Both the position numbers and the translations under genes were made by a program. The notes beneath the pieces are model-generated. The model worked only from the letters and a program-made list of their open reading frames with translations. It did not search any database and was not told the origin of the DNA. Below are positions 9,979 to 51,812 of a stretch of 64,000 bases of DNA, one piece after another. How positions within the stretch are numbered: the stretch's first letter is position 1; each line of letters opens with the position of its first letter. Source of the DNA: Psychrobacillus soli (GTDB lineage: Bacteria > Bacillota > Bacilli > Bacillales_A > Planococcaceae); contig NZ_VDGG01000021.1 in assembly GCF_006861775.1 (NCBI RefSeq), positions 1 to 64,000 of the forward strand. The letters are read 5' to 3'.

Positions 9979-10401
9979 TTAGACTTCCATCGTTTCAAAG
10001 TTAACTTTCGTTTTGAAAAGCTCTGCTTGTTTTCTCACAAGCTCTTTTGTGATTTGTTTTTCCGCTTCGATTAGCTGCGGTTGCCACGTAATGGTTTCTG
10101 GTAATTCTGCTTTATATGCTGCATCGATTATTGCGAGATGTTTGGCAAGTTCATCTTCCATGCCTGCAACGATTCCTATTCCGATGCAATTATTTATCTC
10201 CACTTTTGCTTCCGTTATAAGGACTTCCCCTATATAAAATAAGGAGTTTTTAGCGGACTCTCGCATTTTGATCATCGTTAATCCATATTGCGGTGCGAGA
10301 ATTTCTTTGCATTCATATACATCTATAATTGTTTCCGCTAGCTTTTCTGCTAAGTGGCCATTTTCTTGAATGAGAATTTCGGTTCGTCTTCTTCTTTTCA
10401 T
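9979..10401 (-). CDS. phnG: C-P lyase core subunit PhnG
   Basis: A 140-residue PhnG protein, the first structural gene of the C-P lyase operon. Diagnostic segments are TMIKMRESAKNSLFYIGEVL, the AIIDAAYKAE helix and the C-terminal RKQAELFKTKVNFETM. It joins PhnHIJ in the core complex. AGGAGG stands about 5 nt before the ATG. Upstream lies a 400-bp region holding an inverted-repeat cluster (10421-10448), a tandem repeat array and the phnF terminator, so the operon must have its own promoter. Confidence 0.93.
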   Translation of the reverse strand: MKRRRRTEILIQENGHLAEKLAETIIDVYECKEILAPQYGLTMIKMRESAKNSLFYIGEVLITEAKVEINNCIGIGIVAGMEDELAKHLAIIDAAYKAELPETITWQPQLIEAEKQITKELVRKQAELFKTKVNFETMEV

Positions 10402-21080: not shown

Positions 21081-21207
21081 ACCTTTTACCTCCATATATC
21101 TTAATGATTTAAGCATGGACGAGTTAATGAAATTTTTCAACTATATTTACAATAATATTTTCGTAGGGTATACTGGGGGCACATTTAAAAAACTACATAC
21201 CGTTTTT

Positions 21208-21298
21208 CGCACTAGGGGTGCCCATTATGGCTGAGATGCGAGCATTTGCTCCGATCCCTTATAACTCGATCAGGATAATACCTGCGTGAGGAAGTGCG
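21208..21298 (+). ncRNA. TPP riboswitch
   Basis: The THI-box core is present: GGGGTGCCC, GGCTGAGATG, CGATCCCTTATAACTCGATC, then AGGATAATACCTGCG with GTGAGGAAGTGCG. The closing stem pairs CGCAC with GTGCG. It lies in the leader of ykoFEDC and should lower expression when thiamine pyrophosphate is plentiful. Confidence 0.95.
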
Positions 21299-21330
21299 GT
21301 GACTTTCCGAATTTTTCATATTGGATAAGT

Positions 21331-25891: not shown

Positions 25892-26923
25892 TTACAAATC
25901 ATCAAATCCATTGTCAATCGCATTCACTTTAACGTATTGGCGAGATTTTTGTTCAAAGAAATCTGTTTTCGTACCATCTATATTGTCCGCATATGCACGA
26001 ATCCATTTCATCGGATTTTCTACATATTCAGGGTAGATTTCATTAAGCCCGAGCAGACGCAGCATTTTATTTGCACGATATTTGATATAGCCTTCCATAT
26101 CATCTAAATCGATTCCTTCGATGTCCTTTAAAACATAATTAGACCATTCGATTTCGTGCTCGACCGATTCTTTGAATTGGTCGTAAACCCAGCCTATTAG
26201 TTCTTCGTTATTAAGCTCTGGATTTTCGGATAACGTAGCTCTAAACAATTCGGAGATAAAGCGACCATGCTCCAGTTCATCCCGGTTGATATAGCTAATC
26301 ATAGTAGATGTACCAACCATCTTATTGTAACGGGCTAAATTGTAGAAAAATGCGAAACCGGAATAGAAAAATAAGCCTTCTAATAATGTTGTATATGTTA
26401 ATGTTTTGACTATATTTTCAGTTGTAGGGTTTTCCACAAATTCATTATAGTATTTAACAATATTTTCATTTCTTTTCAACAAAATAGCGTCAGTTCTTCC
26501 AAACTCAAATGATTTATTTTGTTGGTCTAGTGATACAACGGATGATAAAACATATGAGTAACTTTCGTTATGAACCGCTTCTTGCTGTGCGATTACAGCC
26601 ATAATGGATTGAACGGAAGGATCCGTTGCATATAACGACAGTAATAATGCTGTTCTTGTTTGTGGCGCATCAAGCGTTGCAAGTAACCCGATAACCTTTA
26701 AATAAGCATCTTGCTCTGGCTTCGTTAAATTTTTGAACTGTTTTACATCACTCGACATATTCACTTCGTCTGCTTGCCAGTAATTTCCCAGTAATCGCTT
26801 ATATATTTTATACCAGTGTGGATAAGCGATATCATTCCAATTTAAAATACCACTTGATTTGCCGTTAAAAATTCCTGTCGATTTATTAGGATTTCTAGGG
26901 TCTAATGTTTTTGCTTTCTCCAT
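25892..26923 (-). CDS. nrdF: Class Ib ribonucleotide reductase small subunit NrdF
   Basis: A 343-residue ferritin-like protein that carries the dimanganese or diiron tyrosyl-radical cofactor. Metal ligands are visible in AQQEAVHNESY and RDELEHGRF. It ends with the C-terminal tail used to dock on NrdE. It overlaps nrdI by 29 nt and is the last gene of nrdEIF. Together they make deoxyribonucleotides aerobically. Confidence 0.95.
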   Translation of the reverse strand: MEKAKTLDPRNPNKSTGIFNGKSSGILNWNDIAYPHWYKIYKRLLGNYWQADEVNMSSDVKQFKNLTKPEQDAYLKVIGLLATLDAPQTRTALLLSLYATDPSVQSIMAVIAQQEAVHNESYSYVLSSVVSLDQQNKSFEFGRTDAILLKRNENIVKYYNEFVENPTTENIVKTLTYTTLLEGLFFYSGFAFFYNLARYNKMVGTSTMISYINRDELEHGRFISELFRATLSENPELNNEELIGWVYDQFKESVEHEIEWSNYVLKDIEGIDLDDMEGYIKYRANKMLRLLGLNEIYPEYVENPMKWIRAYADNIDGTKTDFFEQKSRQYVKVNAIDNGFDDL

Positions 26924-27338
26924 TTTCTAAAACTCCTTCTATCCATTTACTTACTATTTTCTCCTGGCTTCCCCTTGGGGATTGCTCTATCTTTAAGCCG
27001 TCGTAGTTACAGTTATAGAACTTCACTAATCTATCCACAGCTCCACAAAATAAGTCATCTCCGCCAAATTGGGTATCCCCAGAACCAAATACATATACAT
27101 TTTCCGGTTTATAGCCAACTTCCCGAGCGAAGTCTTTCATTTCATCCGGTGTGCTTCCTCTATCCCATGTAAACGTTCCAAAAAACAACTTGTCATATGT
27201 GGATAGGTCCGGCACTGCGCCGAATCCTATCATATACATATCCACAACATATCCACTTGTTTCGAGATGATCCTTTATTAATTCAGCTATTTCTTCTGTG
27301 TTACCGCTATAGCTTAAGTAACAAATGATTGCTTTCAT
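26895..27338 (-). CDS. nrdI: Flavodoxin-like NrdI
   Basis: A 147-residue flavoprotein that activates the manganese cofactor of NrdF. The FMN phosphate loop reads SYSGNTEE near the start, and FGTFTWDRGSTP and FGSGDTQFGG form the flavin loops. I chose ATG 27338, which overlaps the nrdE stop as TAATG; four upstream residues in the longer frame are inside nrdE. No nrdH glutaredoxin gene is present here. Confidence 0.93.
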   Translation of the reverse strand: MKAIICYLSYSGNTEEIAELIKDHLETSGYVVDMYMIGFGAVPDLSTYDKLFFGTFTWDRGSTPDEMKDFAREVGYKPENVYVFGSGDTQFGGDDLFCGAVDRLVKFYNCNYDGLKIEQSPRGSQEKIVSKWIEGVLENGESKNIRP

Positions 27339-29563
27339 TAGCTTGAGCAAGAGTCACAATCTACTAATTCAACGGAAGTAGAACGAACGTAATAAGTCGT
27401 TTTCAGCCCGCTGTTCCAAGCTTCTAAGTGTAAGTCTAGTAATTCTTTTGCTTTAATGGTGTTTTGCACGTATAAGTTTAGCGAAACACCTTGGTCGATA
27501 TGACGTTGGCGTGCCGCATTTTGTTTTAATGTCCAATGTTGATCGATGAAATAAGCTGATTTATAAAACCATGTTGTCTCTGAATTCAAATCTGGCACTG
27601 TTACTGGAATTTTATAATCCTTCTTCTCTTCGGAATAGAATTTTTGGAAAATCGGATCAATGCTCGCCGTACTTCCAGCTAGAATAGATGTTGATGAGTT
27701 CGGTGCAACTGCCATTAAATAGCCGTTTCGAATACCATTTGTAGCTACTTCATGGCGCAGTTCATTCCACTGATCGCTCTCGTAGTTGCGATTTTCAAAG
27801 TAAGCTCCTGTTTGCCAATCCGACCCTTCAAATAAAGGATATGCCCCTTTTTCTTTCGCAAGCTCATTAGATGCTTGAATCGTTAAGAAAGCGACTTTTT
27901 CGTATAACTTATCTGCGAACTCTACTGCTTCGTTTGATTCCCAGCGAATGCTATTTAAAGCAAGTAAATGATGCCATCCAAAAGTACCTAAACCGATTCC
28001 ACGATATCTTGCATTCGTGCGCTGCGCTTGCGGAACTGGAATCATATTCAAGTCAATTACATTATCAAGCATGCGCACTTGTATTTTGATAAGACGTTCC
28101 AAAACATCTGCTGGAACTGCTCGTCCAAGATTAATAGAAGATAAGTTACAAACAACGAAATCTCCAGGTTTACGACGAGTTACAATAATATCGTCTTCTA
28201 ATTGAATCGATTCGAAAGAAGTAGCGCTTTGGTTTTGGAAAATTTCCGTACATAGATTACTGCTGTACACCATACCTGCATGCTTATTTGGATTGCTTCG
28301 ATTTACTTCATCGCGATAAAACATAAAAGGTACACCCGTTTCGAGTTGAGAGCGCATAATACGTTTCATCAAATCGATTGCCGGCACTGTTTCACGAGAT
28401 AAACGACTGTCGTTCACACATTCCTCGTACTTTTCGCGGAATGACCCGTCGCCACGTTTTTCATCGTAAAAGTCTTCTAATGAATAACCTTTTAACTGGC
28501 GAACTTCATGTGGGTCAAATAAATGCCATTCTTCACGTGCATCTACCTTTTCCATGAATAAATCTGGTAGGCATACCCCTGTGAAAATATCATGTGCGCG
28601 AAGACGATCATCTCCATTATTTAATCGCAAATCTAAAAATGTGAAAATATCTTTATGCCAAACATCCAAGTAGACAGCAATTGCCCCTTGACGTTGACCA
28701 AGCTGGTCGACACTTACTGCCGTATTATTTAATTGTTTGATCCATGGCAATACCCCGCTTGATGCTCCGACAAATCCACGAATCGACGAACCTCTACTTC
28801 TTACTTTCCCCATATATACGCCGATTCCACCGCCAAATTTTGAAAGGGTCGCAACGTCTGTATTGCTATCATAAATTCCTTGTAAACTATCATCGACTGT
28901 ATCAATGAAACAACTTGAAAGCTGCCCATGAGGTTTCCCTGCATTCGATAAGGTTGGAGTTGCAACAGTCATATATAAGCTGCTCATTGCCCAGTAAGAC
29001 TCTTTTACTTTGGCAAGACGATTTTCTTTTTCGTCTTTCATTAGCGTCATAGCAATCATCATCCAGCGTTCTTGTGGAAGCTCGACAGTTGACTTATCAA
29101 AGTCTTTTGCAACATATCGATCTAGCAATGTTTTCAATGCGATATAGGTGAATAAATAATCACGCTCTGGCACGATTATTTCCGCTAGCTGTTGTAATTC
29201 CTCATCTGAGTACGCTTCAGCAATGCGCTTGTCGTAAAGTCCTTTGGAAATGAGTTTTTGCACATTGCTTGCAAATTTTCTATATACTGCGTCGGGAGTT
29301 GTCCCTCTATTCATCGCTATTTCTTCATACACATCTGCTAAATGGATACGAGCTGCGACAAACGTCCAATACGTTTCTTGTTCGTCTAAATAGCTTAGTG
29401 CTTCTAGCGACATCGACTTGGACCATTCCGAAATTGTCCCTTCTGGAAATTTCATTGTCCATCTTTCGTGTGCTTTTATAAGTGGTGCTATTTTTTCTTC
29501 TCCAAATTCTTGGATTAGTTTATGTAATACCTCTTGTTTTTCTGTGTTTGAAATAGTTGTCAT
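27338..29563 (-). CDS. nrdE: Class Ib ribonucleotide reductase large subunit NrdE
   Basis: A 741-residue catalytic subunit, slightly longer than the usual 700-720. Active-site features include PTLSNAGKPHGQLSSCF, FGGGIGVY, the NLCTEIFQN loop, VCNLSSINL and MAVAPNSSTSIL. The C-terminal redox pair is CDSC, five residues from the end. It lacks an ATP-cone at the N terminus, as expected for class Ib. Its leader carries a cobalamin riboswitch, a terminator and two NrdR boxes, so expression should fall when B12 is available. Confidence 0.95.
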   Translation of the reverse strand: MTTISNTEKQEVLHKLIQEFGEEKIAPLIKAHERWTMKFPEGTISEWSKSMSLEALSYLDEQETYWTFVAARIHLADVYEEIAMNRGTTPDAVYRKFASNVQKLISKGLYDKRIAEAYSDEELQQLAEIIVPERDYLFTYIALKTLLDRYVAKDFDKSTVELPQERWMMIAMTLMKDEKENRLAKVKESYWAMSSLYMTVATPTLSNAGKPHGQLSSCFIDTVDDSLQGIYDSNTDVATLSKFGGGIGVYMGKVRSRGSSIRGFVGASSGVLPWIKQLNNTAVSVDQLGQRQGAIAVYLDVWHKDIFTFLDLRLNNGDDRLRAHDIFTGVCLPDLFMEKVDAREEWHLFDPHEVRQLKGYSLEDFYDEKRGDGSFREKYEECVNDSRLSRETVPAIDLMKRIMRSQLETGVPFMFYRDEVNRSNPNKHAGMVYSSNLCTEIFQNQSATSFESIQLEDDIIVTRRKPGDFVVCNLSSINLGRAVPADVLERLIKIQVRMLDNVIDLNMIPVPQAQRTNARYRGIGLGTFGWHHLLALNSIRWESNEAVEFADKLYEKVAFLTIQASNELAKEKGAYPLFEGSDWQTGAYFENRNYESDQWNELRHEVATNGIRNGYLMAVAPNSSTSILAGSTASIDPIFQKFYSEEKKDYKIPVTVPDLNSETTWFYKSAYFIDQHWTLKQNAARQRHIDQGVSLNLYVQNTIKAKELLDLHLEAWNSGLKTTYYVRSTSVELVDCDSCSS

Positions 29564-29625
29564 GTAAATTCCTCCCTATTTATTGGGTTAGTGGGTTGGT
29601 ATGAGGAGTGTGCACTTTTGTGGAT

Positions 29626-29666
29626 ATAAAAAGCGATGTCTCAAACCTCTTCGGCTGAGCCAACGC
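29626..29666 (-). terminator. Riboswitch-controlled terminator in the nrdE leader
   Basis: On the minus strand GCGTTGGCTCAGCC pairs imperfectly with GGTTTGAGACATCGC and is followed by five T. It stands between the cobalamin riboswitch and nrdE, the position of an expression platform. The pairing is read by eye and includes mismatches. Confidence 0.6.
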
Positions 29667-29776
29667 TCAAAATGTAAAGTAGGAAACAACAGGACAATTA
29701 AATCGGAAAGATTAAGAGAGTGTCCTTCGCTTCCACCTCTCAACCCCCGAAGAAAGTGTTGCTTTGTACGATAAAA

Positions 29777-29906
29777 AGGCAGGTCTACTGGCTCATGCTT
29801 CATCCTCCTGCTGTCCTTCCCACGATTGCTCGCAGTGGTTATTTCAACAGTCGTCCACATTTACAGTTGCGGGGACAGCTTCGGTATTTTACCGAATTCC
29901 CTTTTA
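29777..29906 (-). ncRNA. Cobalamin (B12) riboswitch upstream of nrdE
   Basis: On the minus strand the conserved cobalamin core is clear: GGGAA, CGGTAAAATACCG, CTGTCCCCGCAACTGTAA, GGGAAGG and the terminal ATGAGCCAGTAGACCTGCC. It points towards nrdE, and no other gene follows it. B12 riboswitches usually repress when cobalamin binds. Control of a B12-independent reductase implies that a B12-dependent class II enzyme exists elsewhere. Confidence 0.92.
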
Positions 29907-29935
29907 ATCCATAAAGGTACCTAATTATCGCTCAC

Positions 29936-29983
29936 ATACTACATATAGTGTTTCATTTCTTTATATAGCCTAACATATTGTGT
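29936..29983 (-). promoter_or_regulatory. Pair of NrdR boxes in the nrdE promoter
   Basis: On the minus strand ACACTATATGTAGTAT (29951-29936) and ACACAATATGTTAGGC (29983-29968) match the NrdR consensus and lie 32 bp centre to centre, the usual three-turn spacing with a 16-bp linker. A TATATAAAG stretch between them may be the -10. The NrdR repressor would act here. Confidence 0.82.
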
Positions 29984-30050
29984 TTAGGCTTGTACAGTGG
30001 AAAGAATCAATTGCATCAAAAGAATCATTTTAACAGTTATTTGATCAAAT

Positions 30051-30085
30051 AAAAAGATGGACATCTACAAATGTCCACCTCTTTT
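30051..30085 (-). terminator. Terminator after uppP
   Basis: GTGGACAT and ATGTCCAT form the stem and TCTTTTTATTT follows on the minus strand, 3 nt beyond the uppP stop. Confidence 0.8.
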
Positions 30086-30087
30086 CA

Positions 30088-30915
30088 TTACATAAAAACG
30101 ATAATTGCTAACACTGCCGCTAACACTAAACGATAAATAGCAAACGGCATTAGTTTAATACGTGAAATAAGCTTTAAGAAAAATTTGATCGAAATTAGAG
30201 CGAATACAAATGCACTTATAAAACCTACTACATAAAATCCCATATCATCCATACTAATATGTTCCCAGTTTTTCAGTACGGACACTAAGCTTGCTCCAGC
30301 CATAATTGGCACAGCCATGATGAATGTAAAATCTGCTGCTGTTTTATGACTCATTCCAAACAAAACACCACCAGAAATCGTTGCACCTGAACGGGAGAAA
30401 CCTGGCCATAATGATAGACATTGAACCAATCCTACTTTAAATGCTTGTGCATATGTAATTTGGTCCAGACTAACGATTTTCGGCTTTTTGGGTCCGAGCT
30501 TATCTGCAATTATCATTAATATAGATCCTGCTACAAGACTAAATATAACTGTTTTTACACCAAATAAATTATCGTCGATAAAATCTTTAAGCGCGAATCC
30601 TAAAATAACTGCAGGAAGCATCCCAACAATTACATGCAACAAATTAAACTGTTTACTCGATTGTTCACTATCTATTTTATACAATCCTACTAGACTAAAT
30701 AAACGTTTCCACATAACAACGACTACAGCTAAAATCGACCCCAATTGTACGACAATCTTAAACGTATTTGCAGAATACATTCCTAAAAAGCTCTCTGTTT
30801 TCAGCCACATATCATCCACAATAATCATATGACCAGTGGAAGAAACAGGTGCAAACTCCGTCATACCTTCAACAAACCCTAATATTAATGCTCTTAATAA
30901 TTCTAGAAATTCCAT
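30088..30915 (-). CDS. uppP: Undecaprenyl-diphosphatase UppP (BacA)
   Basis: A 275-residue integral membrane enzyme that dephosphorylates undecaprenyl pyrophosphate to recycle the cell-wall lipid carrier. It also gives bacitracin tolerance. The motif EGMTEFAPVSSTGH (E16, E20, H29) and PGFSRSGATISGG around residue 170 are intact. AAGGAGATCTT precedes the ATG. It follows dedA by 9 nt, and the lia envelope-stress operon lies nearby on the other strand. Confidence 0.95.
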   Translation of the reverse strand: MEFLELLRALILGFVEGMTEFAPVSSTGHMIIVDDMWLKTESFLGMYSANTFKIVVQLGSILAVVVVMWKRLFSLVGLYKIDSEQSSKQFNLLHVIVGMLPAVILGFALKDFIDDNLFGVKTVIFSLVAGSILMIIADKLGPKKPKIVSLDQITYAQAFKVGLVQCLSLWPGFSRSGATISGGVLFGMSHKTAADFTFIMAVPIMAGASLVSVLKNWEHISMDDMGFYVVGFISAFVFALISIKFFLKLISRIKLMPFAIYRLVLAAVLAIIVFM

Positions 30916-41254: not shown

Positions 41255-41325
41255 CCGTGGGCCCGCACGATGCGGGTCATGCATCCGTTGCCACAGGATG
41301 TGGCGTACTTAGGATGCCTTCCTTT
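41255..41325. repeat. Degenerate intergenic repeat, family C copy 2
   Basis: GGGCCCGCACGATGCGGG is followed by TCATGCATCCGTTGCCACA and GGATGTGGCGTACTTAGG. It aligns with the 56.5-kb copy over about 55 bp (GCCC, GATGC, TCA, TTG, CACA, GGAT, CGTA and TTAGG in the same order). Locally GC-rich, with CCCGCA/TGCGGG hairpin. It forms the leader of the response regulator gene. Confidence 0.65.
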
Positions 41326-41468
41326 TTCTTCTTATGTTTCTTATTGTACCGTTCATTTCTTAACATTTCAGAAGGATAATTATGAAGAATTTCTTAAGAA
41401 AAAAGGAAAATGATGAGCATGTAACTTTCTACGAGGTAAACAGTCTAATCCTATAAAGGAGTGATTCC

Positions 41469-51693: not shown

Positions 51694-51812
51694 CTCCTCT
51701 TATCTTCCAAATTCTCAGACCGAATTTGTAGGAATTAGCACCTTTCCAAGTTTAGAACTCGTTGGTTGCCGGGCATCGCAGGGCCTAGTCCCTCCGCCAC
51801 TCTTGATAAGAG
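51694..51812 (-). ncRNA. SAM-I riboswitch (S-box) upstream of metY-hom
   Basis: On the minus strand CTCTTATCAAGAGTGGCGGA, GGGACTAGGCCC, ATGCCCGGCAACC, GGTGCTAATTCC and AGATAAGAG give the full S-box in order. S-adenosylmethionine binding should end transcription before metY. Confidence 0.96.

Follow-up and report, generated by a model that had tools for sequence, protein, structure and literature searches.

In Streptomyces, the class Ia ribonucleotide reductase operon nrdABS is under a cobalamin riboswitch, reportedly demonstrated by experiment by Borovok and colleagues in 2006. The locus described here lies in a window (the whole stretch of DNA analysed, 64,000 nucleotides from Psychrobacillus soli) and resembles the Streptomyces system: a B12-independent class I operon is preceded by the switch, and the organism also carries a class II reductase and NrdR. 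The two systems nonetheless differ, since Streptomyces belongs to another phylum, its class Ia operon is said to include nrdS where the present one has a flavodoxin gene, and its regulation is said to rest on experiment whereas the regulation proposed here is inferred.

The underlying logic, a B12 off-switch placed on a B12-free isozyme, was proposed two decades ago (PMC545781), and published accounts describe several bacterial examples. RNA-seq leaders of Bacillus methanolicus MGA3 place an AdoCbl riboswitch before nrdAB, with metE and a cobalamin operon likewise under switches (PMC4342826); the window shares with this system the order Bacillales and the riboswitch, and additionally has, relative to that account, NrdR boxes and a coupling to nrdJ. 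Priestia megaterium, also of the Bacillales, is described with NrdJ and with its B12-independent reductase switched, nrdEF being the operon under the cobalamin riboswitch; the genes are named nrdEF in that source, whereas the operon in the window is not class Ib (PMC8390425). In Cutibacterium (Propionibacterium) acnes, nrdAB combines an NrdR box at the promoter with a cobalamin riboswitch causing early termination, and nrdJ is NrdR-controlled with, as far as that account goes, no annotated switch; unlike the window, C. acnes has a single NrdR box at nrdAB, and nrdDG is switched too (PMC3848588). An earlier note on this DNA, whose author knew of little on such control of class Ib in Bacillales, understated what is in print, namely B. 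methanolicus nrdAB (PMC4342826) and P. megaterium nrdEF (PMC8390425). The logic found in the window is therefore already on record for Bacillales and, combined with NrdR, for Cutibacterium.

What is new here is the statistics of the coupling between switch and nrdJ, a decaying switch, a copied switch and a possible embedded operator. With the coupling, the long-proposed rule that a B12-free isozyme is silenced whenever its B12-using counterpart can function gains, for an essential enzyme, a pattern with almost no exceptions. Natural experiments are provided by the one decaying switch and by closely related species from which both switch and nrdJ have gone. Furthermore, a riboswitch appears to have been copied from gene to gene, still bearing a remnant of its former operator, and the class Ib leaders of relatives point to an operator embedded in an aptamer.

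The operon comprises three genes:

27338-29563, minus strand: nrdA, class I reductase alpha subunit, 741 aa (NF006665, 1273 bits, cut-off 1057; TIGR02506, 598 bits, cut-off 341)
26895-27350, minus strand: flavodoxin gene between nrdA and nrdB (an ORF starting with TTG, with an in-frame ATG at 27338)
25892-26923, minus strand: nrdB, class I reductase beta subunit, 343 aa (NF007184, 434 bits, cut-off 310)

Membership in class I is given by TIGR02506, NF007184 and PF00268 (258 bits for the beta subunit, cut-off 33.6), all over cut-off. The alpha subunit is 93% identical to the NrdA of two Psychrobacillus records, and the best solved relative of the beta subunit is 2rcc (E 1.5e-103). The flavodoxin is recognised by NF006747 (147 bits, cut-off 104) and scores slightly under cut-off with TIGR01754, the RNR-associated flavodoxin model (159.4 bits, cut-off 163.8). 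The earlier note had called the operon nrdEIF of class Ib, a reading that could draw on the flavodoxin gene within the operon and on an alpha subunit in which no ATP-cone model matched at E values up to 10. The class-specific models speak otherwise: alpha reaches 434 bits with the NrdE model TIGR04170 (cut-off 750), beta 162 bits with the NrdF model TIGR04171 (cut-off 355) and the flavodoxin 12.5 bits with the NrdI model PF07972 (cut-off 27), whereas among the proteins scanned from the class Ib operons of relatives these models were passed by eight of eight, six of six and seven of seven, respectively. A class Ib system is thus scarcely credible at this locus and was rejected; by its model scores, the operon is nrdA-flavodoxin-nrdB, of class I but not of class Ib. 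Class Ib operons do exist in the same family, where loci first assigned by NF006665 scores of about 365-410 bits were confirmed by the models in eight genomes only; five of these eight carry the switch, and class Ib operons with a switch were also found in the wider family sample.

The regulatory elements all lie on the minus strand, in the gap between uppP (30915-30088) and the three-gene nrd operon; a further hairpin lies between uppP and the leader:

29983-29968, minus strand: predicted NrdR box 1 (upstream), ACACAATATGTTAGGC, 12 of 16 positions matching the consensus
29951-29936, minus strand: predicted NrdR box 2, ACACTATATGTAGTAT, 14 of 16, adjoining the 5' end of the aptamer
29939-29761, minus strand: cobalamin riboswitch aptamer (RF00174; cmscan 114.2 bits, E 7e-28, model positions 1-189)
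29755-29736, minus strand: 5' arm of the predicted antiterminator, TTTCTTCGGGGGTTGAGAGG, complementary to CTCAGCCGAAGA of the terminator
29668-29628, minus strand: intrinsic terminator, a hairpin followed by a run of five T (-15.8 kcal/mol, z -2.8)
30058-30077, strand unassigned (the scan listed the plus strand only): hairpin between uppP and the nrd leader

From the letters alone, the earlier note had picked out in this leader a pair of NrdR boxes at a distance of 32 bp, a complete B12 riboswitch and a terminator, and each of them held up. The boxes were scored against a general NrdR consensus. A score of 12 of 16 is by itself not rare, the window scan having returned 14 sites of at least 12, of which box 2 is the top one. 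The distance of 32 bp corresponds to a 16-bp spacer, and the usual NrdR spacer is given as 15-16 bp, or about three turns between box centres (PMC12051234). With integral-turn spacing and an nrdR gene in the genome (contig C75, 222 bits), the pair qualifies as a predicted NrdR operator. Both boxes are nearly invariant and in the same place in 12 aligned leaders of the genus, ACACAATATGTTAG of box 1 being identical in all of them, and the surrounding bases vary. Among 80 named relatives, 61 of the 62 switch-bearing leaders and all 18 switch-less ones have a best box pair that outscores at least 98% of Markov shuffles. A stricter pair score of at least 24 is attained in 51 of the 62 and in 15 of the 18, certain switch-less 'pairs' containing one poor box (7-8 of 16). 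No sigma-70-like promoter was found in 29500-30150, for which shuffles gave a mean of 2.0. The hairpin at 30058-30077, whose stem is followed by TCTTTTTATTT when read on the minus strand, is probably the end of the uppP unit.

The covariance-model scan covered RF00174 over its full length with a score far above the gathering score of 31.5. A match upstream of nrdA is present in all 19 genomes of the genus (the placement of nrdA coming from the family survey for 17 and from the named loci L049 and L079 for two). Given the strong score, this occurrence across the genus and the conserved leaders, a chance match or a mis-called riboswitch was rejected. Downstream of the aptamer, a hairpin followed by 5-7 T can form in all 20 aligned leaders (19 nrd, 1 metE), at -15.4 to -26.1 kcal/mol, and its 5' half can alternatively pair with the arm TTTCTTCGGGGGTTGAGAGG in all 20, at -14.7 to -16.7 kcal/mol. 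The 3' arm of the terminator varies in sequence among leaders while the hairpin is kept; the antiterminator offers no usable covariation because its arm is invariant in the 20 leaders. An expression platform able to switch, made of terminator and competing arm, is thus predicted in every leader aligned. The layout is that of an off-switch, its direction and ligand being taken by analogy from the riboswitch family.

Could the aptamer be a relic that no longer responds, leaving NrdR as the only control of the leader? The terminator in the window is the weakest of the 20 (-15.4 against -19.7 to -26.1 kcal/mol), and a U in GAGCCAGUAGACC of the aptamer replaces the G of the Rfam consensus. The same U, however, is common to all 12 aligned leaders of the genus, core and expression platform are far more conserved than the flanks, and genomes without nrdJ show the switch missing or visibly decayed. 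We therefore regard a relic as very unlikely and a responsive riboswitch as the preferred reading.

Searching the whole genome (4.2 Mb, 101 contigs) with PF02867 returned the nrdA of the window and a single class II nrdJ, which is spread over two frames:

C14:173980-176263: nrdJ, class II reductase (its larger part scores 466 bits with TIGR02504, over cut-off)
C14:about 174385-174724 (L016:6386-6725): group I intron of about 340 nt in nrdJ (RF00028, 74.8 bits)

The class II reductase expected elsewhere in the genome is therefore present, and a B12-dependent isozyme is encoded in the same genome as the B12-independent one. The intron separates two parts of nrdJ, whose function therefore depends on splicing. 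Interruptions are also seen in relatives, many of which have an nrdJ broken near profile positions 155, 284 or 458; nrdA is split as well in some (G044, G057 and G137). The leader of nrdJ has two NrdR-like boxes (14 of 16 each, 33 bp apart), and none of the five cobalamin riboswitch matches of the genome lies there. A class III reductase as the partner of the switch in place of nrdJ was considered and rejected: NrdD had no match in this genome and was over cut-off in none of 45 genomes, which include all 23 switch-less ones, the search giving two weak matches of 19 bits. A working switch without nrdJ would therefore silence the only reductase found.

Taken together, these elements make it very probable that the B12-independent class I operon is under double control by NrdR and a cobalamin riboswitch, with a hand-over to NrdJ. 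More specifically, at high dNTP levels NrdR would repress initiation at nrdA from its two boxes, which are separated by about three turns of the helix, and transcripts that have started would next reach the riboswitch, so that NrdR would act at initiation and the riboswitch at elongation. When adenosylcobalamin is missing, the arm at 29755-29736 is expected to pair with CTCAGCCGAAGA and to prevent the terminator. When adenosylcobalamin is present, the arm would be taken up, the terminator at 29668-29628 would form and nrdA-flavodoxin-nrdB would not be made; NrdJ, which is B12-dependent and has NrdR boxes and no cobalamin switch, would then supply dNTPs. We infer ligand, response direction, NrdR binding and enzyme hand-over from the sequences. 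Several points weigh against the double-control model: the terminator in the window is weaker than all the others aligned, the promoter scan found no consensus promoter, the nrdJ of this genome is intron-interrupted, G119 and G148 have only one of two class I loci switched, and the coupling is not absolute in one direction, L084, L073 and L086 having nrdJ and no switch.

The family sample comprised 151 genomes of 19 genera, evenly drawn under a completeness requirement of at least 90; a profile derived from the riboswitches of this genome and of named relatives was used to score the switch. nrdJ was counted as present in 129 genomes (119 over cut-off and 10 by split matches, of which G108 and G112, read as split nrdJ from pieces, are a judgement) and as absent in 22 genomes with TIGR02504 matches of class I strength only. 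Switch and nrdJ occur together in 128 genomes, neither occurs in 22, nrdJ alone in one and the switch alone in none (Fisher p 1.5e-25, kinship ignored). The one genome with nrdJ alone, G097, is an assembly listed with 8% contamination. The 23 switch-less genomes contributed 24 leaders, every one of which was likewise negative with Rfam. Two class I loci were examined in four genomes, with both switched in G005, neither in G043 and one of two in G119 and in G148.

Named relatives, a set that overlaps the family sample, have the switch at 62 of 80 loci. Among the 50 loci tested for nrdJ, all 32 with a switch have nrdJ, compared to 3 of 18 without. These three are Sporosarcina quadrami (L084, with nrdJ in pieces under cut-off) and two metagenome assemblies (L073 and L086), Candidatus Kurthia equi and an uncultured Sporosarcina; RF00174 was negative by Rfam at these loci and at the 15 other switch-less named loci. 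What the sequences show directly is that the elements exist and are conserved, that the genome has nrdJ and nrdR, and that the switch is coupled to nrdJ; the prediction that nrdJ accompanies the switch has been borne out across the family.

A B12 response serving another end, such as redox or cobalt status or the supply of flavodoxin, would leave shared ancestry as the only source of the link to nrdJ; related genomes are indeed not independent, and most genera are uniform. Switch and nrdJ, however, co-vary inside four genera, in which 2 of 17, 1 of 3, 1 of 16 and 1 of 4 genomes are without both, and the chance of such a within-genus match is 3.8e-5. Genomes without nrdJ also keep other cobalamin switches (10 of 10 examined), which counts against this explanation, and the count of zero switch-only genomes fits essentiality. 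We consider it most unlikely. A switch never seen without nrdJ, with the reverse seen occasionally, is the asymmetry expected if B12 repression of the only reductase is lethal. Coupling to nrdJ is thus the reading we retain, and these genome comparisons lend strong support to a model in which B12 would turn the B12-free reductase off at times when NrdJ can work.

Individual leaders illustrate the loss. The NrdR boxes of Sporosarcina limicola (L074) are identical to those of Sporosarcina sp. JAI121 (L075); JAI121 has both switch and nrdJ, S. limicola neither. In G111, a genome without nrdJ, the leader of the class Ib genes (L254:about 40-420) aligns with the working switches of its genus, its core motifs being ruined (CCCCGCAACTGTAA to CCCTTTAACTTAAA, CCACTG to CCCCTG) and its score falling below the Rfam gathering score. 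By this alignment, the G111 leader is identified as a decaying cobalamin switch in front of class Ib genes. Because the switch is missing or decayed where nrdJ is missing, intact switches appear to be under selection.

A second cobalamin riboswitch of the genome looks like a copy of the nrd leader:

C1:540-362 (L002), minus strand: metE-linked cobalamin riboswitch at the contig end

Its aptamer is 88% identical to the nrd aptamer, compared to a range of 81-93% for the nrd switches of other species of the genus, and its platform is of the same kind as that of the nrd leader. The counterpart in G115 (L147:1313-1679) is preceded by a SAM riboswitch (94.6 bits) and the terminator of that riboswitch, and followed by metE. 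In the present genome, metE opens another contig (C28:1-520, L271) with the same start context as the metE of G115, so contigs C1 and C28 very probably join. A metE over the model cut-off was found in 3 of the 19 genomes of the genus; in the third of these, the cobalamin switch is of a different type. In a tree of the riboswitches, both metE copies are placed among the genus's nrd switches (fork 90/89, unstarred); the fork parting outgroups from genus is weak (70/82), one Sporosarcina outgroup row, with a very long branch, is drawn into the genus, and a long-branch warning applies. Both metE copies keep most of NrdR box 2 (ACAATATATAG.ATGT), in register before the aptamer, and this remnant has no evident use for metE. 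On the simplest reading of these sequences, a segment of the nrd leader that starts inside box 2 and ends with the terminator would have been copied to a site ahead of metE, and the copy would create the SAM/AdoCbl NOR arrangement, described as a known one (PMC9481103). The metE cassette may also have been passed between species of the genus.

The class Ib leaders of relatives differ from the window in the placement of the second box, which lies directly before the aptamer in the window and would lie within it in these relatives. In class Ib leaders, helix P3 of the cobalamin aptamer is made by the palindrome CTACTATATGTAG or a variant of it; in three cases for which the alignment was displayed, Rfam assigns this palindrome to the P3 pairs. 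Examples of such leaders are:

L239:189-374, L241:167-348 and L248:880-1060: class Ib leaders with the predicted box at P3

In class Ib leaders, the best pair places box 2 at P3 in all 37 usable cases, from at least five genera, 1 nt (35 leaders) or 4 nt (2 leaders) before AAAGGGA, with box 1 (13-15 of 16) lying 32 bp (21 leaders) or 31 bp (16 leaders) upstream. In nrdA-type leaders of the family sample, box 2 is upstream of the aptamer in 78 of 88 usable cases, inside P3 in 8 and in neither position in 2; in those of the named relatives, it is upstream in 58 of 60 and inside P3 in 2. A usable motif was missing from 1 of 38 class Ib riboswitches and from 4 of 92 and 2 of 62 nrdA riboswitches, respectively. 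An NrdR pair with a P3 box occurs in none of 26 riboswitches of other genes, a control that leaves out L304, the nrdE switch of G148. The P3 box scores 11-12 of 16 in class Ib leaders compared to 6-11 in 28 others, a moderate score in hairpins that resemble palindromic operators; the class Ib sequences are moreover related, with five P3 variants in all. We lean towards the view that in these relatives the second NrdR box may be the P3 helix itself, a single segment serving as repressor site and as part of the RNA sensor, so that dNTP and B12 sensing would be physically interlocked. NrdR sites downstream of the transcription start are described in M. tuberculosis (PMC4428469), and no report of an overlap between NrdR box and aptamer was seen in the openly available literature searched.

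The genome holds five cobalamin riboswitches, including the one at nrdA. One precedes genes resembling uptake genes, which score under the NCBIfam cut-offs, and a stretch containing a cobQ match that is over its cut-off. Two others are placed as follows:

C14:21758-21955 (L014:10758-10955), minus strand: cobalamin riboswitch before a citrate-synthase-like gene, prpD and prpB
C31, L012:9552-9782 and 10052-10242, minus strand: cobalamin riboswitch before a 76-residue ORF

At the C14 switch, prpD and prpB are over cut-off and the citrate-synthase-like gene is slightly below it (TIGR01800); this would be a B12-free propionate route under the same logic as nrd. For two of the small-ORF proteins, no Pfam or NCBIfam family was over cut-off; by eye, look-alikes of the 76-residue ORF stand behind cobalamin riboswitches in L150, L151, L152 and L154. 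The window itself also contains, above their gathering scores, a SAM riboswitch (51697-51812, minus strand), a TPP riboswitch (21204-21309, plus strand) and a Bacillaceae-1 RNA (41262-41328, minus strand).
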